A stretch of DNA of 64,000 nucleotides, from assembly GCF_010669225.1 (NCBI RefSeq), contig NZ_CP048627.1:682001-746000 (forward strand). The letters are read 5' to 3'. Below, piece by piece: positions 36,185 through 48,989 of the stretch. The stretch's first letter is position 1. Each line of letters begins with the position of its first letter. Source of the stretch: Megamonas funiformis. GTDB lineage: Bacteria > Bacillota > Negativicutes > Selenomonadales > Selenomonadaceae. The notes under the pieces are model-generated. The model was not told the DNA's origin and made no database searches. It saw nothing but the letters and a program-made list of their open reading frames with translations. Made by a program: the position numbers and the translations under genes.

Positions 36185-37372
36185 TTATTGGAGAAATTTC
36201 TTGATTAAGATAGCGTTGAAAAAATTTAAACGAGTGAAAGCATCATCTAAAGAAGTATTAGTAATTTCTTCAATACGCTGTAATCTATATTTTATGGTAT
36301 TGCGATGAATGAATAATGTTTCGGCTGTTTGATTTAAATTACAATTTTTATTTAGGTATACTTCTAAAGTTTGTATTAAATTAGTATTATACTTTTTATC
36401 ATAAGCCATTAAACTATATAGTATATTATGCACAAAATTCTCTAATAGAGTTTTATTGTTTATATCGTAAAATAATTGATATAAACCTAATTGTTCATAA
36501 TAATAAATCATATTTTTTTGTTTTTGTTTAATAGCTAGATTAATACATTTTGAGGCTTGTTCATAACTGAGTTTATATTTTTCTAGTGATTTTTGTCGTG
36601 TACCAATGCCGATATTTACAATATAATTGGGATGATTTTCTTTAATATAGTTTAATATTTGCGGAAAAAGTGTATTTAATGTATCAAGAGAAGTATTATT
36701 AACATTAATTAAAGCGATGATATTTTTAGTATAACTAGAGGATAAAATGGGAATATGTTCATTTTCAAATAATGTATGAATAAATTGACATATAGTATCT
36801 TTATCCACATCATTTAAAATAATGGCATTTTCACTTTGAGGTAAAAGAAAATTGATTTCAAAGAATTGTAAATATCCATCAAAAGAAAAATTTACTTCTT
36901 GACTTTGATATTTTAGATAATCAAGAGATAGATTAGTGTTAAAAATGATACTGAATAATAAATCTTTGTGTTTGTCATTAATCAAATTAATACTAGCAAT
37001 AGCATGACCTAGTTCTTCAAAAATATCAACAAGTGGAGTATCCCATGGTATAAGAAATAAAGGAAAATGTTTCTGATTACTTAAATTTATGACAGATTGA
37101 GGAATTTGTTCAATATAATTTGGCCCAATGAGTAATAGTGCACCAGATATATTTAGAGAAATAGCTTCTTTTAAGAAGTTATACAAATTAAAATCTTTTT
37201 CATGAATAACCATTTTACTGACAATCAAAAGTTCTCCACCATGTACCCATTTTGCGAGATGAATGGACTCTGCCTTATAACTCCAGCGAATGATTTTATG
37301 TAAACCTTTATTTCCTGCAATTATTTTCATTTTAGATAAAGATGGTAATTTAAATAAATCTTTACATTGAAA
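36185..37372 (-). CDS. PucR-family transcriptional regulator
   Basis: 395 residues, divergent from the symporter-creatininase operon and so its probable regulator. The N-terminal PucR domain has FKLPSLSKMKIIAGNKGLHKIIRWSY and HGGELLIVSK. The central GGDEF-like domain is degenerate. The C-terminal PucR/CdaR-type helix-turn-helix is CNLNQTAETLFIHRNTIKYRL with RIEEITN. Family members control purine, ureide and related nitrogen catabolism. The start is the ATG ending at 37372 with GGAGG eight bases upstream. Confidence 0.88.
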   Translation of the reverse strand, partial: FQCKDLFKLPSLSKMKIIAGNKGLHKIIRWSYKAESIHLAKWVHGGELLIVSKMVIHEKDFNLYNFLKEAISLNISGALLLIGPNYIEQIPQSVINLSNQKHFPLFLIPWDTPLVDIFEELGHAIASINLINDKHKDLLFSIIFNTNLSLDYLKYQSQEVNFSFDGYLQFFEINFLLPQSENAIILNDVDKDTICQFIHTLFENEHIPILSSSYTKNIIALINVNNTSLDTLNTLFPQILNYIKENHPNYIVNIGIGTRQKSLEKYKLSYEQASKCINLAIKQKQKNMIYYYEQLGLYQLFYDINNKTLLENFVHNILYSLMAYDKKYNTNLIQTLEVYLNKNCNLNQTAETLFIHRNTIKYRLQRIEEITNTSLDDAFTRLNFFNAILIKKFLQ

Positions 37373-37545
37373 CATAAGGAATACCTCCAATAAGGGATAA
37401 TATATGTGAAAAATTATAGCATATACAATATAGTATAATCATGATTTTATAATTATACGAAAATATATTTTGTAAGTTTTGCACAAAATATATGAAATAT
37501 CTTTGTAGAAACAGTATAAATTTTATGTTATTGGAATAAATAATA

Positions 37546-37983: not shown

Positions 37984-39456
37984 ATGACTTTACAGGAATT
38001 ATCAATAATATTCTTTTTTGGGTTTTTAGTTTTTGTAGGAATAGTAGCATATTTTTCTAGTAAACAAAAAGCATCTGGTGTATCTGCTGATGTTGAATAT
38101 TATCTAGGTGGACACAGTACTCCTACAGTAGTATTAGCCTTTTCTTATGTAACATCTTCAATTAGTGCAGCTTGTTTCATGGGAGATCCAGGGATTATGT
38201 CTACAGTAGGCTGGCCATATTATTGGGTAGTTATTGCTATTGTGCCAGGTTTAATCATTCCAGCTGTATTGCTTATGCCAAAAATGAGACAGCAAGCAGA
38301 AAAACTTGGTTCATTGACTATTCCTGAATATTTAGGACAAAGATATAATAGTACAGCATTGCGTTTAATAATTGCAGGTGTAATATCTGTTTTTTATATT
38401 TTTCCGTTAGTAGCTCAATTTAAAGGAGCAGCTGTTTTATTAGAATCTTTTACTGGTATTTCTTTTAATATGGGATTAGCTATTATAACAGTTGTAATTA
38501 TTTTTTATGTTATTGTTGGTGGTTTAAGATCGGTAGCATGGACTGATTTTGTACAAGGTTTACCAATGTTAGTTATTAGTATAGTTTTATTGGTTGTTTC
38601 GTTAAATGCTGTTGGTGGTTTTAGTGGTTTAGAAGAAAAATTATCACAGATTGATCCTAATATGTTGAAGGTCGTTCAAGATGAAGCATCTGATGCTCAA
38701 ATGTCATTATCTGGAGTTTTAGGAAATTTTGTTTTTTGGTGTGTTATTTTTATAAGTCAGCCATATTTATGTTCTCGTTTTTTAGCCATACCAAATGTAA
38801 AAAGAAAAACAATTGGAACATTCTTGATCACAGCTTTAATTTTAAGTGTTGTTTATAATAGTTTTTATATTGCAGGTTTAACAGGTAGAGTGTTATTCCC
38901 AGATGTTAAAGCCGATTATTTAACTGTAACAATGGCAATAAATCTTTTGCCTACAGCAGTTGCAGCTTTTATGATGATTGGTATTTTTGCAGCCATGATG
39001 TCTACAGCAACTTCTGTTTTATTGGTAATTGGTCAGGCAGTAGGTAGAGATTTTTATTCTAAAACTATAAACAAAAATGCTTCACCAGAAAAAGAAGTTT
39101 TAGTTACTAGAATTGCGATTGTAGTAGTAGCATTTATCTGTTTTGCATTTAATTATGTTGATCCACCAGAATTTTTATCTGTTGTATTATATTTGGGATT
39201 GAGTGGAATAGGTTCTTGTATTGGTATTCCATTATTTGCAGCAATTGTTTCTAAAAAATCTACAAAAGAAGGAGCTATTGTTTCCTCTATTGTTGGTCCA
39301 ATTGCTTATATTATTTTCAATTATGTAGTTGGTTTTAATTTTTGGTTTGCAGGTTTGATGGCTATTGTTGTAGCAGCTATCTGTATGGTAGTAATTTCTG
39401 TCTTTATTAATAAAAAGAATAGAGCTTTAATCAGTAATGTAGCAGAAGCTAAATAA
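37984..39456 (+). CDS. Sodium:solute symporter (SSS family)
   Basis: 490-residue inner-membrane importer with about 13 helices, driven by sodium. It shows the opening ELSIIFFFGFLVFVGIVAYFS, YYLGGHSTPTVVLAFSYVTSSISAACFMGDPG and the core helix VIIFYVIVGGLRSVAWTDFVQGLPML. Later come MIGIFAAMMSTATSVLLVIGQAVGRDFY and the final helices, typical of the pantothenate/proline/urea-type branch. The substrate is not readable, but the operon context points to creatinine or a similar cyclic amidine. It has AAAAAGGAG upstream. Confidence 0.9.
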   Translation: MTLQELSIIFFFGFLVFVGIVAYFSSKQKASGVSADVEYYLGGHSTPTVVLAFSYVTSSISAACFMGDPGIMSTVGWPYYWVVIAIVPGLIIPAVLLMPKMRQQAEKLGSLTIPEYLGQRYNSTALRLIIAGVISVFYIFPLVAQFKGAAVLLESFTGISFNMGLAIITVVIIFYVIVGGLRSVAWTDFVQGLPMLVISIVLLVVSLNAVGGFSGLEEKLSQIDPNMLKVVQDEASDAQMSLSGVLGNFVFWCVIFISQPYLCSRFLAIPNVKRKTIGTFLITALILSVVYNSFYIAGLTGRVLFPDVKADYLTVTMAINLLPTAVAAFMMIGIFAAMMSTATSVLLVIGQAVGRDFYSKTINKNASPEKEVLVTRIAIVVVAFICFAFNYVDPPEFLSVVLYLGLSGIGSCIGIPLFAAIVSKKSTKEGAIVSSIVGPIAYIIFNYVVGFNFWFAGLMAIVVAAICMVVISVFINKKNRALISNVAEAK

Positions 39457-39492: not shown

Positions 39493-40245
39493 ATGTCGTA
39501 TTATATGCACGATTTAACTTGGCCAGAATTCAATGATAAAAAAGATAAAGTAGTTATTTTGCCAATCGGTTCAACAGAGCAACATGCCCTACATCTTCCT
39601 TTATGTACAGATGCTAAAATAGCAGAACAATTTTCTCTACATTTAGCAGAAAAAATAGATGGAGTAGTAATGCCGACAATTGTTTATGGCTATAAATCAA
39701 AACCTTTAAGTGGTGGCGGTCCATTATTTCCAGGAACAATAGATTTAAATGGAAATACTTTAATTTATTTAGTTCATGATATATTGATGGAATTAATAAG
39801 AGATGGATTTACAAAAATATTCATTATGAATGCACATTTTGAAAATGAAGCATTTGTAGTTGAAGCAATGGATTTAGTCAATAGAGAAACAAATGGAGCA
39901 GCAACAATTGTTGAATCTAATTGGTGGGACCCAATGCCTGAAGATGTGATAGATTTGATATTCGATAAAGTGCCTTTCCCAGGTTGGGCTTTAGAACATG
40001 CAGCTGTAACAGAAACATCTTTGATGTTATATTTTGCACCAGAGCTTTGCAAAATGGATAGAACAGTGGATGTAGTATCAACAAATGCATTGCCTTATTT
40101 TAGATATCCATTGAAAAAAGATGATGTACCAGAATCAGGAGCATTAGCAAGTTGTGCTTATTCTAGTGCTGAAAAAGGAAAAATAATAGTGGATAAAGTA
40201 CTTCCTGAATTAGTAAATATTTGTAAAAAGGAATTTAATTTATAA
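39493..40245 (+). CDS. Creatininase (creatinine amidohydrolase)
   Basis: 250 residues of the creatininase fold, a metal-dependent amidohydrolase opening creatinine to creatine. The ligands are E29 and H31 in GSTEQHALHLPL, D40 in CTDA, H115 and E117 in NAHFENEA. As I recall the Pseudomonas enzyme, its substrate-site W154, W174, H178 and E183 align with W145, W165, H169 and E174 here. This supports a true creatininase rather than the MftE or FAPy branches. It sits between the symporter and the CodA-like gene. Cytoplasmic. Confidence 0.85.
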   Translation: MSYYMHDLTWPEFNDKKDKVVILPIGSTEQHALHLPLCTDAKIAEQFSLHLAEKIDGVVMPTIVYGYKSKPLSGGGPLFPGTIDLNGNTLIYLVHDILMELIRDGFTKIFIMNAHFENEAFVVEAMDLVNRETNGAATIVESNWWDPMPEDVIDLIFDKVPFPGWALEHAAVTETSLMLYFAPELCKMDRTVDVVSTNALPYFRYPLKKDDVPESGALASCAYSSAEKGKIIVDKVLPELVNICKKEFNL

Positions 40246-40288
40246 TAATTTTATATTATTAGGGTATAACATATAGGAGATATATATT

Positions 40289-41542
40289 ATGAAAAATTTA
40301 TTTATAAATGTTCGTTTAAAAGGAAATAAAGAATTACAATCTATATTAGTAAATGATGGCAAATTTGAAAGAATTGGTAAAATAGAACCACAAGATGATT
40401 ATAATATTATTGATTTAAAAGGAAATCTAGTAGTATCTCCGTATGTAGATCCACATATACATTTAGATTATGTATTCACTACAAAATTAGAAGGAGCAAC
40501 TAATAAAACAGGAACATTATTTGAAGGTATACAACGTTGGAGTGAAACAAAATCTAAATTTACAAAAGAAGATATAAAATATAGAGCTAAAAAAGCAATA
40601 AAAAAAGAAGTATTAGCAGGAGTTCAATATATTAGAACACATGTAGATGTAACTAATAAAAATTTTGAGGCATTAGAAGCTATTTTAGAGTTAAAAGAAG
40701 AATTAAAAGATATAGTGACAATTCAGATAGTATCTTTTCCGCAAGAAGGAATGTATGCATATAAAAATGGCGTAGAATTAGTCGAAGAAGGTTTAAAAAT
40801 GGGAGCAGATTGTGTAGGTGCAATACCTCATTTTGAATACGCTAAGGAATTTGGTGAAAAATCTATTCATAAAGCAGTTGAATTGGCTTTAAAATATGAT
40901 CGCTTAATAGATGTTCATTGTGATGAAACAGATGATGATCAATCTCGTTATGTAGAATTATTAGCAGCTCTTACATATATGGAAGGGATAGATAAAAAGA
41001 CTACAGCTAGTCATACTTGTTCATTAGGTTCGGCTAATAATGCTTATGTTTTTAGATTAATGAATTTATTATGTAAAACAAAAATGAATTTTATATCATG
41101 TCCAACAGAAAATATTTATCTCCAAGGTCGTCAGGATACATATCCAAAACGCAGAGGATTGACAAGAGTAAAAGAATTGAATGATAATCATATAAATGTT
41201 TGCTTTGCTCAAGATTCCATGTCAGATCCATGGTATCCTTTAGGAAATGGAAATATGATGAATATTTTAGACCATGGAATTCATATTTGCCAGATGATGT
41301 CTTTTGATGAAATTGATAATGCTTTGGATTTAATAACAATAAATGGAGCTAAAACTATGAACCTAGATGATGTTTATGGAATTGAAGTTGGAAAAGATGC
41401 TAATTTTATTGTTATTAATGCTAAAAGTGAATTTGAAGCAGTTTGTGAACGTGCAGGTGTATTAGCTTCTATTAGAAATGGAAAATATTTGTTTAATAAA
41501 ATTCCAGAAAAAGTAAATACTGATATTGAATTATTATCTTAA
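40289..41542 (+). CDS. CodA-like amidohydrolase (cytosine/creatinine deaminase family)
   Basis: 417 residues of the cytosine-deaminase branch of the amidohydrolase superfamily. The ligands match E. coli CodA with an offset of four: H57 and H59 (PHIHLD), Q152 (PQEG), H210 and E213 (HCDE), H242 (SHT), D309. LQGRQDTYPKRRG and DPWYPLGNGNM are conserved. The key difference is S310 where CodA has Asp314, a substrate contact, with FAQDS for FGHDD. Together with creatininase this suggests a different substrate, such as creatinine or N-methylhydantoin; the former would give N-methylhydantoin plus ammonia. A good terminator follows. Confidence 0.8.
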   Translation: MKNLFINVRLKGNKELQSILVNDGKFERIGKIEPQDDYNIIDLKGNLVVSPYVDPHIHLDYVFTTKLEGATNKTGTLFEGIQRWSETKSKFTKEDIKYRAKKAIKKEVLAGVQYIRTHVDVTNKNFEALEAILELKEELKDIVTIQIVSFPQEGMYAYKNGVELVEEGLKMGADCVGAIPHFEYAKEFGEKSIHKAVELALKYDRLIDVHCDETDDDQSRYVELLAALTYMEGIDKKTTASHTCSLGSANNAYVFRLMNLLCKTKMNFISCPTENIYLQGRQDTYPKRRGLTRVKELNDNHINVCFAQDSMSDPWYPLGNGNMMNILDHGIHICQMMSFDEIDNALDLITINGAKTMNLDDVYGIEVGKDANFIVINAKSEFEAVCERAGVLASIRNGKYLFNKIPEKVNTDIELLS

Positions 41543-41991: not shown

Positions 41992-42055
41992 TAGTAAATT
42001 ACTACTTATTTAGGTATATATAAATTATTTAATGGTTTTTGAAAGGAGTGTTTTG

Positions 42056-42748
42056 ATGAAAGTATATCAAATAAGAATGGAGATCTTTTTGTTAGAAGAT
42101 ATTGTTATTAATAAAATTCAAGAAAAGATAACAGCTTTTATTGATTCGGGTTTTAAAACTGATGAAGAGTGGTTAAATTTTCATGAAAAAAATAGTTTTA
42201 AAAATTACTGCTATGATCAGTTATATCCAGTAGAAAATGATCGGGTTTATAAAAAAGGAAAGATATATACTTTGACTATACGTACTGTAGATTTAGAATT
42301 AGCAAAATATTTTAAATTAGTATGTGTGGATAATCACATAAAAGAAATTAAAGGATTGGTAGCAGAAATAAGAGTGTTGCCAAAGAAAATATTAGAAACC
42401 GTATATACGCTTACACCTATGATCATAAAAACAGAAAAAGGTTATTGGAAAGAAGCTATAAGTTTTGCAGAATTTGAGCAAAGATTAAAAGTTAATTTAA
42501 TTAAAAAATGGAATGCGTATCATCAAGAAAAAATTGATGAAGACTTTGATTTATATACTGTAATAGAACTTAAAAATAAAAAGCCAATTGCTATAGAGTA
42601 TAAAAAAATAAAATTACTGGGAGATAAAGTTCAAATACAAGTGGCAGATAATAAGCGTGCTCAAGATCTATGGTATTTTGCTTTAGGTGTTGGTCTGGGT
42701 GAGATGAATGCTCGTGGCTGTGGATTTTTAAATTATCGTTGGCTATAA
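42056..42748 (+). CDS. cas6: Cas6 pre-crRNA endoribonuclease
   Basis: 230-residue repeat-specific RNase that trims CRISPR transcripts in type I-B. The start at 42056 (MKVYQIRMEI) has AAAGGAG upstream. Two ferredoxin-like halves are suggested: the N terminus has MEIFLLEDIVINKIQEKITAFI, and the C terminus ends with the glycine-rich loop ALGVGLGEMNARGCGFLNYRWL, the Cas6 hallmark. The catalytic His is not certain; H56 lies after NF. First gene of the operon, in the usual I-B order. Confidence 0.85.
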   Translation: MKVYQIRMEIFLLEDIVINKIQEKITAFIDSGFKTDEEWLNFHEKNSFKNYCYDQLYPVENDRVYKKGKIYTLTIRTVDLELAKYFKLVCVDNHIKEIKGLVAEIRVLPKKILETVYTLTPMIIKTEKGYWKEAISFAEFEQRLKVNLIKKWNAYHQEKIDEDFDLYTVIELKNKKPIAIEYKKIKLLGDKVQIQVADNKRAQDLWYFALGVGLGEMNARGCGFLNYRWL

Positions 42749-42778
42749 ATTTTTTATGTAAAAGAAGGGAGGAATTTT

Positions 42779-44578
42779 ATGTTTAAAGAATGTTTAGATG
42801 TTTTTTTAGAAATGTTAAAGCATGAAGATAATCTCATTTTAAAAGGATATATTCCTGCTGATGGCTCATATGTAATTGTAAAAAATGATGGTACTGTGAA
42901 AAATGCAGATATAAAGTTTGATAAAAAAACAAGAAATTTAAATTGTACGGACGATACATTATTAAATGATATTTGTTTTTATGATTATCACAGTAAATTA
43001 ATATCTATGAACAAACCAATAGATATAAAAAAAGTAATTCATTCTAATAATTATTTAGCTTTTGCAGTGAAAAAGGAAAGTATTACTACTAAATTAACAG
43101 AAGCAATTATTGATAACTATTATGATACTTTAAAAAATCCTTTAGAGAAAAAATATAAAAAATCTAAAGAAGCAAGTAAAATCTATCAAAAATTTGAAGA
43201 AGATCATGGTGTTGTAAATATAACGTTATTGGAAAAATGTAGAAGTTGGATAAAACAGCATATTTTTTCTATTGATAAATTGGTAAATGTTGATTTAGAA
43301 AAAAAAGAATATCTTAAAATTTTCTTTGAAGTTTTTGAAACAAATGAAGAAGATAATAAGAAGAATAAAGAGCTATTTATCCAAGAAGATAATCGTTATA
43401 TTTATCCTAATATATACAATAATAATTATTATAATGTAGAAGTTGACGGGAAAATACAAGGTATTCCAGATAATAATATGGGTATGAATGCTAAGAAACC
43501 ATTTTTGTCTATAAAAACAAGAAAAAATCCAGCTTCGTATTTATTAGATGGAGATACCGCTTTATTACAAAAACAATTTTTTGAATATCTAATGAATTTT
43601 GCTACTAATGGTAAGAATAATATATATGTTGACATAATTAATAATAAAATAGAAGCATATAGTGATAAAGAAGAAAGAGAAAAATTTTCAGGTATAGAAG
43701 CAGGATATTATTTGCGTATTCAAAAAGGTAAGGAATTGGAAATTCAAGTTCAAGATAGTATAGTAAATTATCAAGATAAATTACTTTTAAATTTTAATTA
43801 TCAAGATTTTTTCAAGATGAATATAGAAAAATATCCAGAGTATACGAAAAACATAGGTATTTATACAAAAAGAACAGATGTAGGAAGATTAATAAATAAT
43901 ATATTTTTTTCTAAGTATTTATTGACGAATTATTTTACTGATGCAAATGATATTAGTGTGAAAGATAGTGTTTTAAAAAGAATAATTATTATGTATCGTA
44001 ATGTTATTTTTGATTGGATATATAAAGGCATTGATAATAACTTTGAAGTAGTAGAAAAACAATTTGTTTTGGAATTAATAAAAAATACATTGATTAATGA
44101 TTATAATTTGCGTGCAATGACACAATTAAATTTGCATTGGTCATTTGAAGATTATTTTGCTAATTTAGAAAAACGAGGAGGAGAAAAAATGGCAGATATA
44201 GCAACTAAAATAAGAATGAGTGTAAAAGAAAAAGTTATGTCTAAGGATAAAGCAGTAATAGTTAATAATAATGAAGAGTATTATTATGCTATAGGTCAAT
44301 TAATGGCATATTTTATATCATTAAGTAAAGCTAGTAAAAAAGCACAATCTTTGATAAATCCAGTACTCAATGCTCAAAATGATACAGTTATCAAAACAAG
44401 ATTATTACAATTATATAAAAAATATAATTATAATATTTTAACTAAAAATTCACGTGTAAAAAATCTTTATGCTATGATTTTAGGTTATAAACCAGAAGGC
44501 AAAGTAAATCAAGAGATGATTTTATTTGGCTATATGGATAATAATGTGATTTATACTAAAAGTGAAGAAAAGGAATAA
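42779..44578 (+). CDS. cas8b: Type I-B large subunit Cas8b
   Basis: 599 residues, the large subunit that recognises the PAM in Cascade. It begins MFKECLDVFLEMLKHEDNLILKGYIP, contains GDTALLQKQFFEYLMNFATNGKNNIYVDI, and is Lys/Asn-rich throughout. The match is to the TM1802/Csh1-like Cas8b group by N terminus, length and position. These proteins diverge fast, so the name rests largely on context between cas6 and cas7. It carries no HD or zinc motif that I can see. GGGAGG precedes the ATG. Confidence 0.75.
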   Translation: MFKECLDVFLEMLKHEDNLILKGYIPADGSYVIVKNDGTVKNADIKFDKKTRNLNCTDDTLLNDICFYDYHSKLISMNKPIDIKKVIHSNNYLAFAVKKESITTKLTEAIIDNYYDTLKNPLEKKYKKSKEASKIYQKFEEDHGVVNITLLEKCRSWIKQHIFSIDKLVNVDLEKKEYLKIFFEVFETNEEDNKKNKELFIQEDNRYIYPNIYNNNYYNVEVDGKIQGIPDNNMGMNAKKPFLSIKTRKNPASYLLDGDTALLQKQFFEYLMNFATNGKNNIYVDIINNKIEAYSDKEEREKFSGIEAGYYLRIQKGKELEIQVQDSIVNYQDKLLLNFNYQDFFKMNIEKYPEYTKNIGIYTKRTDVGRLINNIFFSKYLLTNYFTDANDISVKDSVLKRIIIMYRNVIFDWIYKGIDNNFEVVEKQFVLELIKNTLINDYNLRAMTQLNLHWSFEDYFANLEKRGGEKMADIATKIRMSVKEKVMSKDKAVIVNNNEEYYYAIGQLMAYFISLSKASKKAQSLINPVLNAQNDTVIKTRLLQLYKKYNYNILTKNSRVKNLYAMILGYKPEGKVNQEMILFGYMDNNVIYTKSEEKE

Positions 44579-44593
44579 TAGGAGGACAATAAA

Positions 44594-45511
44594 ATGGAAG
44601 ATAAAACTATGAATAAAAGAATATATGGTATTTTAGGTATTTCTTCAGTTATGGGTAATTGGAATGCAGATTTTTCAGGATATCCAAAATCAACAACAGA
44701 TGGCAATATATTTGGTAGTGATAAAGCTTTAAAATATCCAATGAAAAAAATGTGGGATAATGAAGGTAAAAAAGTAATTTATATTAAGTCTTTAAATGAA
44801 AAATTAATTCCAAGAACATTGAAGGAACGTTATATAAAAGTTTTTGAAGATGAAGATTTAAAGGATGTTAAAAAAGTTTTGACTAATTTAATGAATGCTG
44901 TAGATATAAAGAATTTTGGTGCAACTTTTGCAGAAGCTGGTTGTAATATTGCAATTACTGGCGCAGTACAAATCGGTCAAGGTTTTAATAAATATGATAA
45001 TTCCACAGCGCAAGAACAGCCAATTTTATCTCCATTTGCAGATTCAACAGATGAAAATGCTAAAAATTCCACTATTGGTACAAAAATTACAAGTAATGAA
45101 GCACATTATTTTTATCCATTTGTAATTAATCCACTTGCTTATAAAGAATTAATAGAATTAGGCGTTACAGAAGGTTATACAGAAGAAGATTATCAAAACT
45201 TTAAACGCACAGCATTGGTATCTGTTACAGCATTTGCAACAAATTCTAAAGTTGGTTGTGAAAATGAATTCGCTGTATTTGTAGAAACGGAAAGTGATGC
45301 TTATTTACCTAATTTATCGGAATATATAACTTTTGCCAAAGATGAAGATAAAAATATCATAGATTTGAAGAATTTGACGGATATATTAAATGATATGAAC
45401 CAGCAGATTAAATCTATAGAAATTTATTACAATCCATATACTACAGAATTAACAAATGACGATATAAAAGATGTTAAGCATTTTAATATCATAACCTCTA
45501 AAGAGGTGTAA
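44594..45511 (+). CDS. cas7: Type I-B backbone subunit Cas7 (Csh2-like)
   Basis: 305 residues forming the crRNA-binding filament of Cascade. NKRIYGILGISSVMGNWNADFSGYPKS is the first strand and loop of the RAMP fold, with a Csh2/DevR-like insertion. NFGATFAEAGCNIAITGAVQIGQGFNKY and NSTIGTKITSNEAHYFYPFVINP are family blocks. The start at 44594 has GGAGG eight bases upstream; an ATG six codons later is in frame. It lies 15 bases after cas8b. Confidence 0.85.
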   Translation: MEDKTMNKRIYGILGISSVMGNWNADFSGYPKSTTDGNIFGSDKALKYPMKKMWDNEGKKVIYIKSLNEKLIPRTLKERYIKVFEDEDLKDVKKVLTNLMNAVDIKNFGATFAEAGCNIAITGAVQIGQGFNKYDNSTAQEQPILSPFADSTDENAKNSTIGTKITSNEAHYFYPFVINPLAYKELIELGVTEGYTEEDYQNFKRTALVSVTAFATNSKVGCENEFAVFVETESDAYLPNLSEYITFAKDEDKNIIDLKNLTDILNDMNQQIKSIEIYYNPYTTELTNDDIKDVKHFNIITSKEV

Positions 45512-45514
45512 TAA

Positions 45515-46345
45515 ATGGAAATTTTAAAATTTAAACTTAGTGGAAAGAGTGCTTTTTTTAAAAAGCCAGAAGTAAATACGTATTGTTATTTCACTTATGG
45601 CAATATTCATAGAGTAGCACTATTAGGTATTTTAGGGGCTATCTTAGGATATAAAGGCTATAGTCAAATGCAAGATATTTTGTCTAATAAAAAGAAAAAA
45701 GGCAAATTAGAGCCATCATATCCAGAATTCTATGAGAAACTAAAAGATTTAAAGATTGCTATTTTGCCCTTAAATCCTAAAGGTGTTATTACTAAAAAAA
45801 TACAGATTTTTAATAACTCTGTTGGATATGCTTCCAAAGAACAGGGTGGAAATCTGATTGTAAAAGAACAATGGCTTGAAAATCCCAAATGGGAAATTTG
45901 TATTTTGCTAGATTGTGAAGAAGCTATAAAAATCAAAGAAGCTATACAAAATTATAAATGCGAATTTTATCCATATTTAGGAACAAATGACCATTTTGCA
46001 GATATTGAGTATTTAGGCGTAGAAGAAGCTCAAACTGTAATACAAGATGATTATAGAATTGATAGTTTTATGGCGAAAGATAATATAGAGTTTATAGAAA
46101 AAAATTCGAGACAATTAAGAAAAATTTTGAGTGAAGATGAAATTGAATCATATAGTCGATTTAAATATGAAGAAGCATTGCCAAAAAGTATCGATGCAGA
46201 AGTGAATAATTACAAATTAGAAAGATTTGTATATACAAATGGTTTTGTTAAATTTTTAGATAGTAAACAAGTATATTCAATATCAAATCAAGATAATAAA
46301 GAAGCAATAGAAGCTAAAAAAAGAAAAAATATAGTATTTTATTGA
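45515..46345 (+). CDS. cas5: Type I-B subunit Cas5
   Basis: 276 residues binding the crRNA 5' handle. The N-terminal RAMP strand is MEILKFKLSGKSAFFKKPEVN, then TYCYFTYGNIHRVALLGILGAILGYKGY, the typical Cas5 glycine-rich helix. HFADIEYLG and a C-terminal extension rich in acidic residues follow. It starts three bases after the cas7 stop and belongs to the same operon. Confidence 0.85.
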   Translation: MEILKFKLSGKSAFFKKPEVNTYCYFTYGNIHRVALLGILGAILGYKGYSQMQDILSNKKKKGKLEPSYPEFYEKLKDLKIAILPLNPKGVITKKIQIFNNSVGYASKEQGGNLIVKEQWLENPKWEICILLDCEEAIKIKEAIQNYKCEFYPYLGTNDHFADIEYLGVEEAQTVIQDDYRIDSFMAKDNIEFIEKNSRQLRKILSEDEIESYSRFKYEEALPKSIDAEVNNYKLERFVYTNGFVKFLDSKQVYSISNQDNKEAIEAKKRKNIVFY

Positions 46346-46415
46346 TTGAAATACTATAAACGATTAATAGAAACAAGAGTTGTTTATTAAATTAAATTTA
46401 GGAAGGAGATTGTTT

Positions 46416-48989
46416 ATGGAAGCGGATATCTTAAAAAATTTAGTTAAAAATCTAAATCGATACAAGGCTCATAAAAAATCTAAAGATAATGAAATAATAT
46501 ATGAAACCTTACTAGCACATACTGAATTAACAAATAAGTATTTTTTTAAATTTTGGCAGAGTAAAAATTCAGATGAAATTTTTGACAGATTTTGTGATGT
46601 TTTTTGGCAGAAAGAAAATATTGATAATAAGTTAAAAAATAAAGCTAAAGATTTATTAAAAGAAATTATTATGACGATACCTATTTTTCATGATATAGGG
46701 AAAGTAAATCCAAATTTTCAATTGATGAAATTAAAAGTCAATGATTTTAAAGAAAATGAAGCATATGTAAATACACATCATTCTTTTTTATCATCAATGT
46801 TTTATATGGATTATTGTAGAAAACTTGTTTATGATGAAAAAAATGAAGACGAGATTGTAAATTTATTGGCGGAGTTCATTTTATATAATGGATATATTAT
46901 AGCTAGACATCATAGCGAATTAGGAAGTTTAACGGAATTTACTAAGCTTATAAATTTAGATGATGATACGTATTTTTCTAAATTAAAACGAATTATAAAT
47001 AATGAAGATATTTATTCAGTTAAGATAGATTTTATAAAATCTGATATAGAAGATATGTTTAGAAATTTAAACAAAGTAGATAAAGATGCTGAAAAAGTAG
47101 GTAAAAGAAGTATTAAACAAGGGGTATATTTATCTATTTATATACGCTGGTTATATTCTTTGTTAGTAGCTAGTGATTATTATGCTACATCAGAATTTAT
47201 GAATGAGGCGGATTTTAGTGAAAATACTGATTTAAATGATATTGATAAATGGGATAGTGTCTATGAGAATACTGATTTATTAAAGAATATTCGCCAATAT
47301 CAACAAGAAAGATATCCTATAAGTAATGAAGAATTAAATACAGTAACAGATATTAATATTTTACGTAGTGAGATTTTTTGTGAAGTAGAAGAAAAAATAA
47401 AAGCTAATACTGATGAAAATATCTTTTATTTAGAAGCTCCAACAGGTAGTGGTAAAAGTAATACAGCTATTAATGCTAGTTTTAAATTAATGCAACATGA
47501 TAAGAGATTACAAAAGATATTTTATATTTATCCTTTTAATACTTTAGTTGAACAAAACTTAGAAACTTTAGAGAAGGTTTTTGCTGATAATGAAGACATT
47601 AAACAAAATATTGCAGTAATAAATTCAATAACGCCGATAAAAGTATCAGAAAAAGATTTAAATGATAATGAAGAAAAAGATGTTTATCAAAAAGCGTTAC
47701 TTGATAGACAATTTTTAAATTATCCTATGATTTTATCAACACATGTTAGTTTATTTAATATTATCTTTGGTAATAGACAAAGTGATGTATTGGCTTTTTA
47801 TCAATTGGCAAATAGTGTAATTGTTCTAGATGAAATTCAAAGTTATAAAAATAAAATTTGGGCTGAAATAATATGTTATTTAAAAGAATTAGCGAAAATG
47901 TTTAATATTAAAATCATTATAATGTCTGCTACTTTGCCAGATTTGGATATTTTATCGAGATTTCAAGCACAAGCAGTAGATTTGCTAGAAAACTCGAGTA
48001 GATTTTTTGCAGTGGATTGTTTTAAAAATCGTGTAAAGTTAAATTATGATTTATTAAAAGTTGATAAAGATAGTATATTAGATGAGTTAAAAACGCATTT
48101 AAAACAATATCTAAAATCAGATAAGAAAATTTTGATTGAATTTATAAAGAAAAAAACAGCACATGATTTTTGGGTAGATTTACAAGAGAATGAAGATTTT
48201 AAAGATGTGCAAATAGAATATTTATCTGGTGATGATAGCATAGCAGAGAGAAAGAGGATTTTAGATAAAGTTAAAAAAGCTACAGATACTATAATTTTAG
48301 TATCTACACAAGTTATCGAAGCTGGTGTAGATATAGATATGGATATCGGTTATAAAAATATATCAAAGTTGGATAGCGAAGAGCAATTTTTGGGTAGAAT
48401 AAATCGTTCCTGCAAAAAAGAAGGTATAGCATATTTTTTTGAAGTTGATGAAGCAAGCGATATATACAAAGATGATGTACGGTTGAGTGAAAGTATTGTA
48501 TTAAAAGATGTAAATATGCAAAAGATTTTAGAATTAAAATTGTTTGATGAGTATTATAAGAAAGTATTAGAAACTACCATGGGAAAATATAGCTATCATT
48601 TTGATGAATTTATAAAAGATATTTCTGATTTAAATTATGAAAGTATATCTACTCATATGAAGTTGATTGATGATACACAGGATATGGTACAAATTTATAT
48701 AATTAGGACTTTATGTGTTGATGGTGAAATTTTAGATGGAAAACAAATTTGGGATAGTTATGTAGATTTATGGGAAAATGGCAGAAAAACTATGTCTTAT
48801 GCCGAGTGGAAAATTGAATTATCTAGAATTACAAGCAAAATGAATAATTTTATCTATCAAGTTAGTAAACATAATTTGCGTATAGGAAAATTTTATGAAC
48901 AAATGGGTAATATTACTTGCTTGGAAGATGGCGATAAATATTTTATAAAAGACAAATTTAATAGAGAGATATTATATATTGAGAATTGA
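46416..48989 (+). CDS. cas3: Cas3 nuclease-helicase
   Basis: 857-residue effector recruited by Cascade to degrade target DNA. The start at 46416 has AAGGAG six bases upstream. The N-terminal HD nuclease includes LLAHTELT and IFHDIGKVNPNFQ (HD about 92-93), then YVNTHHSF and ARHHSELG. The superfamily 2 helicase has APTGSGKSNTAI (Walker A), VLDEIQSYK (DEAD-type box), MSATLPDL, and VSTQVIEAGVDIDMD with LGRINRSCKKEG. All catalytic residues appear intact. It ends the operon: no cas4, cas1 or cas2 follows. Confidence 0.92.
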   Translation: MEADILKNLVKNLNRYKAHKKSKDNEIIYETLLAHTELTNKYFFKFWQSKNSDEIFDRFCDVFWQKENIDNKLKNKAKDLLKEIIMTIPIFHDIGKVNPNFQLMKLKVNDFKENEAYVNTHHSFLSSMFYMDYCRKLVYDEKNEDEIVNLLAEFILYNGYIIARHHSELGSLTEFTKLINLDDDTYFSKLKRIINNEDIYSVKIDFIKSDIEDMFRNLNKVDKDAEKVGKRSIKQGVYLSIYIRWLYSLLVASDYYATSEFMNEADFSENTDLNDIDKWDSVYENTDLLKNIRQYQQERYPISNEELNTVTDINILRSEIFCEVEEKIKANTDENIFYLEAPTGSGKSNTAINASFKLMQHDKRLQKIFYIYPFNTLVEQNLETLEKVFADNEDIKQNIAVINSITPIKVSEKDLNDNEEKDVYQKALLDRQFLNYPMILSTHVSLFNIIFGNRQSDVLAFYQLANSVIVLDEIQSYKNKIWAEIICYLKELAKMFNIKIIIMSATLPDLDILSRFQAQAVDLLENSSRFFAVDCFKNRVKLNYDLLKVDKDSILDELKTHLKQYLKSDKKILIEFIKKKTAHDFWVDLQENEDFKDVQIEYLSGDDSIAERKRILDKVKKATDTIILVSTQVIEAGVDIDMDIGYKNISKLDSEEQFLGRINRSCKKEGIAYFFEVDEASDIYKDDVRLSESIVLKDVNMQKILELKLFDEYYKKVLETTMGKYSYHFDEFIKDISDLNYESISTHMKLIDDTQDMVQIYIIRTLCVDGEILDGKQIWDSYVDLWENGRKTMSYAEWKIELSRITSKMNNFIYQVSKHNLRIGKFYEQMGNITCLEDGDKYFIKDKFNREILYIEN

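Follow-up and report, generated by a model that had tools for sequence, protein, structure and literature searches.

A probable creatine/creatinine nitrogen-scavenging operon in Megamonas funiformis, in which a creatininase and a CodA-family deaminase may act in series

In Megamonas funiformis, a gene for a creatininase is followed by one for a CodA-like amidohydrolase, which raises the question of whether the two enzymes share a substrate and, if so, whether they open it by parallel routes or act one after the other. We analyzed this locus within the window, the whole 64,000-nucleotide stretch G000:C1:682001-746000, and in its host genome, which is 2.57 Mb in size, has about 30% GC, and is rated 100% complete. 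Three genes lie on the forward strand: a sodium:solute symporter of the SSS family (37984..39456; PF00474, 190 bits), the creatininase (creatinine amidohydrolase, EC 3.5.2.10; 39493..40245, 250 aa), and the CodA-like protein, a proposed creatinine deaminase (EC 3.5.4.21; 40289..41542, 417 aa). Both enzyme reading frames are intact and start with ATG; the gaps are 36 bp between the symporter and the creatininase and 43 bp between the creatininase and the deaminase. Promoter and terminator scans of the operon gave chance-level results, and there was no credible terminator between the three genes, so their cotranscription is likely. A PucR-family transcriptional regulator is encoded divergently on the reverse strand (36185..37390; PF07905, 87.6 bits; PF13556, 78.3 bits). 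Directly downstream of the three genes lies a CRISPR-Cas operon (window 42032-48989), which starts with Cas6 (TIGR01877); the ORFs after Cas6 resemble a type I-B set, and the last one encodes a helicase-like protein.

The creatininase passes the curated equivalog model TIGR04448 (317.9 bits against a cutoff of 235), and it matches PDB 1j2t (E = 3e-47). We compared it with the metal and substrate residues of the Pseudomonas enzyme: the metal ligands E34, H36, D45, H120, and E122 are retained as E29, H31, D40, H115, and E117, and the substrate residues S78, W154, W174, and H178 as S73, W145, W165, and H169. The initial annotation had stated that every such residue is kept; this is true of these nine but slightly too strong, since A, F, and A stand at the sites of Pseudomonas G119, Y121, and D175, respectively. 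Phe121 and Ala175 are common to nearly all linked creatininase relatives, while position 119 varies (A, S, C, or V). By family, the protein is likely a creatininase (EC 3.5.2.10) that would interconvert creatine and creatinine. The window genome also has a second creatininase-family paralogue (L113:1168-3377, near G000:C1 1413776), which is without S78 and E122, scores 83 bits, and adjoins another SSS symporter; it is probably an amidohydrolase of another kind that is served by a separate importer.

The deaminase belongs to the CodA family NF006685 (527.6 bits against a subfamily cutoff of 483) and matches E. coli CodA with an E value of 4e-128. The alignment bears out the earlier claim that the CodA metal and catalytic ligands are kept (H56, H58, H210, E213, H242, D309, and Q152), as well as the claim of an altered FGHDD segment: CodA residues 310 to 314 are replaced by FAQDS in the deaminase (residues 306 to 310; 41204..41218, forward strand), where Asp309 is a metal ligand and Ser310 aligns with CodA Asp314. 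The protein shares with E. coli CodA (1k6w) the fold family, the metal ligands, and the catalytic Glu, His, and Gln, but it differs in having Ser for Asp314, Gln for His312, and a creatininase instead of CodB as its partner. Thus, it lacks the Asp at 314 (FGHDD) of the E. coli-type cytosine deaminase and has the Ser within FAQDS of the Klebsiella type. The Ser had been regarded as an unusual replacement, a view that we reject: the motif site reads [AG]QDS in 80/80 relatives taken from genome contigs, and Ser310 is invariant across this subfamily. Judged from these alignments, Ser at the CodA Asp314 position is what normally marks a large subgroup that was already known.

When the 81 residues around the motif were compared with solved structures, the top PDB match was 4r7w/4r85/4r88, with FAQDSIQDPWYPLGNGN, rather than E. 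coli CodA. A Klebsiella plasmid protein with the same 79-residue stretch is 49% identical to the window deaminase and sits in a codB-PucR-codA locus, where a cytosine permease is encoded but a creatininase is not. Given the matching Klebsiella sequence, 4r7w, 4r85, and 4r88 are probably the published Klebsiella 5-methylcytosine deaminase; a solved relative at about 49% identity is close enough to settle where the active-site residues lie. That enzyme, of the same family, also has Ser at the position of CodA Asp314, and CodA in which this Asp is changed to Ala gains activity on 5-methylcytosine (PMC6186785). Ser310 may likewise give room for a methyl group, which in 5-methylcytosine is the C5-methyl and in creatinine would be the N-methyl.

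The creatininase and the deaminase occur together well beyond this locus. In a sample seeded with the window deaminase, 15 of 78 relatives have a linked creatininase, a count that, like those of neighboring genes given below, ignores relatedness; the two genes are adjacent, divergent, or several kilobases apart, and their order is rearranged among the linked taxa (Clostridium, Romboutsia, Desulfovibrio, and Selenomonadaceae). Among 189 genomes of the family, a creatininase of at least 73% identity is present in 5, all of them among the 7 with a strong deaminase match (at least 64% identity; hypergeometric p = 1e-8, kinship ignored), and the window-type creatininase never appears without the deaminase. 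This pairing is not due to chance. A tree built from 87 proteins places the two Klebsiella sequences as the sister group of a large clade that holds the window deaminase and is marked by DETDD, PTEN, and QDS. The early branches of this clade (Desulfovibrio, Clostridium, Romboutsia, and Selenomonadaceae) are mostly creatininase linked, while a later branch comprises Proteobacteria, Bacteroidota, and others in which the neighbor is a transporter of the MFS type.

The strongest argument for creatinine as the substrate of the deaminase comes from Romboutsia weinsteinii, whose genome (L010) carries the same creatininase-deaminase-PucR set and encodes the steps after N-methylhydantoin, the product of creatinine deaminase. 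A cluster apart from the deaminase locus (L139:244-6850) comprises genes for a sigma-54 activator, an N-carbamoylsarcosine amidase (1nba, E = 1e-59), a D-hydantoinase (TIGR02033, 491.7 against 393), the sarcosine reductase component GrdG (855 against 780), and GrdF, whose reading frame stops at an in-frame stop, as would be expected of a selenoprotein. From its gene content, this cluster is predicted to convert N-methylhydantoin to sarcosine and to take sarcosine further.

The window genome yielded no such set. Searches by family models, which novel enzymes could escape, revealed no HyuB (hydantoinase B) match, no GrdB match (although clostridial genomes searched alongside did give hits), no N-carbamoylsarcosine amidase that exceeded the cutoff, and no recognizable creatinase. 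The lone Creatinase_N protein was rejected as a creatinase, being a PepQ-like peptidase encoded beside an EF-P-like gene. Similarly, the best cyclic amidohydrolase (483 aa; G000:C1:768314-769672) was rejected as a hydantoinase, since it fits a dihydroorotase or allantoinase better: it scores 333.6 bits with pyrC_multi, over the cutoff, and 289.6 bits with the D-hydantoinase model, under the cutoff. A further dihydroorotase-like cyclic amidohydrolase match at G000:C1:1926705-1928003 is broken by two TAA stops.

Could the deaminase have another substrate? We consider it unlikely that it is a Klebsiella-type cytosine/5-methylcytosine deaminase that lies beside the creatininase by chance, in which case the two enzymes would have substrates with nothing in common and would share only a nitrogen regulator. 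The two proteins share FAQDS and 49% identity, the PucR gene is also present in the plasmid homologue's locus, the nearest enzyme of solved structure with this motif is the 5-methylcytosine deaminase, and the window deaminase is the sole CodA-family gene in its genome. Moreover, three close relatives (64 to 73% identity; L079, L124, and L125) adjoin the cytosine permease gene codB, with no creatininase nearby, so a cytosine-type substrate is possible in part of the clade. In one Selenomonadaceae genome (G181; L125 and L129), there are two QDS deaminases, one encoded next to CodB and the other next to PucR, and no creatininase match. However, the Klebsiella enzyme falls outside the window clade, with node supports of 1.0 and 0.95, and where it has DEIDD and PTES the clade has DETDD and PTEN; the creatininase linkage recurs with rearranged gene order; and CodB is found in 0/15 creatininase-linked loci, although there are only 3 CodB loci in total. 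Creatinine deaminases that also accept cytosine appear in older reports, which would be compatible with both the creatinine and the cytosine readings. The initial annotation had alternatively proposed a related heterocycle, and another five-membered amidine or guanidine ring would suit an active-site change that enlarges the pocket in a family noted as promiscuous (PMC12828455). This seems very improbable, given a neighboring creatininase that retains most of the creatinine-binding residues and a Romboutsia genome that provides an N-methylhydantoin pathway; the creatininase linkage and this pathway support the earlier view of creatinine as the likely shared substrate.

If the substrate is creatinine, the two enzymes could still open it in parallel, to creatine and to N-methylhydantoin, with the products serving different ends, a suggestion of the initial annotation with which the two intact, adjacent genes agree. 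The anaerobe Tissierella creatinophila likewise has both a creatinine amidohydrolase gene and a cytosine deaminase-type gene, and its hydantoinase-like gene is clustered with that for N-carbamoylsarcosine amidase (PMC5364220). Of the hydantoinase-like gene, the N-carbamoylsarcosine amidase, and the sarcosine/glycine reductase that T. creatinophila has for energy, none was found in the window genome, and with no creatinase found there either, creatine would be useless to it. Creatininase can run in either direction, and the deaminase would be expected to draw its reaction off. Since creatinase, HyuB, N-carbamoylsarcosine amidase, and GrdB were not found, the only outlet for creatine would be via creatinine, and ring closure followed by deamination is the economical reading. 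We therefore regard the parallel arrangement as quite improbable and two enzymes in series as more likely.

There is precedent for a single line in Corynebacterium glutamicum, in which a transporter and a creatininase (CreT-CrnA, with CrnT-CodA) feed creatine into a CodA-type creatinine deaminase, releasing ammonia (PMC8864220). Creatine is used by strains that combine CreT/CrnA with CodA; those that have only CodA use creatinine, and in them N-methylhydantoin, described as a dead-end product, builds up; ATCC 14067, which has CreT/CrnA, grows on creatine unless creT is deleted, whereas ATCC 13032 uses creatinine only (PMC8864220). The C. glutamicum genes are scattered, encode MFS-type transporters, and are under AmtR, whereas those of the window are grouped compactly and include an SSS symporter and PucR, and the organism is expected to be an anaerobe.

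We propose that the operon probably serves to scavenge nitrogen from creatine and creatinine along one line, creatine <-> creatinine -> N-methylhydantoin + NH3. In this proposal, PucR would sense the substrate or the need for nitrogen; 12 of the 15 creatininase-linked relatives also have a PucR gene, and the protein is likely the operon's regulator. The SSS symporter would bring in creatine and possibly creatinine too. A symporter homologue is found in 7/15 creatininase-linked loci, being absent from the other 8, and in 0/63 loci without a creatininase; its presence only alongside creatininase suggests that the cargo is creatine rather than creatinine. Creatine would be closed to creatinine by the creatininase, the deaminase would convert creatinine to N-methylhydantoin and NH3, and the cell would assimilate the ammonia. 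N-methylhydantoin is probably excreted, since the later enzymes were not found in the window genome. Both activities, the direction of flux, the transported substrate, and the regulator's ligand are predictions from sequence. A role in the use of host nitrogen by a gut bacterium, as the initial annotation envisaged, is likely; the genome belongs to the Selenomonadaceae, a gut-associated family, as shown by two loci from Selenomonadaceae MAGs that are 100% identical to loci of genomes classed in the same family as the window (L084 = L005 and L085 = L006).

More tentatively, and with somewhat less confidence than for the operon itself, we suggest that a creatine-to-N-methylhydantoin nitrogen route is widespread among anaerobes of the Selenomonadaceae and clostridia, some of them gut associated, and that it would consist of a new Na+:creatine symporter of the SSS family, a ring-closing creatininase, and a dedicated clade of creatinine deaminases. 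If true, such a route would convert host creatine to ammonia and N-methylhydantoin. The enzyme families, the chemistry, and the kind of pathway are already known; what is new is the operon, probably that of a gut anaerobe. A 2023 review notes that creatine/creatinine-use genes are hardly described for infant gut symbionts (PMC10215027), and our literature search turned up no publication that mentions both Megamonas and creatininase. The operon offers concrete candidate genes in an area, the consumption of creatine and creatinine by bacteria of the gut, where genes are poorly assigned. It also points to a possible origin of N-methylhydantoin in the gut and bears on creatinine as a kidney marker.

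An MFS transporter lies beside the deaminase in 38/63 loci without a creatininase, and this later branch of the window clade recalls CrnT-CodA of C. glutamicum, a likeness drawn from the published description. On the Citrobacter werkmanii plasmid pCW-CTX-M-15A (L115:5842-8248), genes for an MFS transporter and a QDS-type deaminase lie near IS1/IS3 transposase genes; this pair is possibly a mobile creatinine-use cassette.
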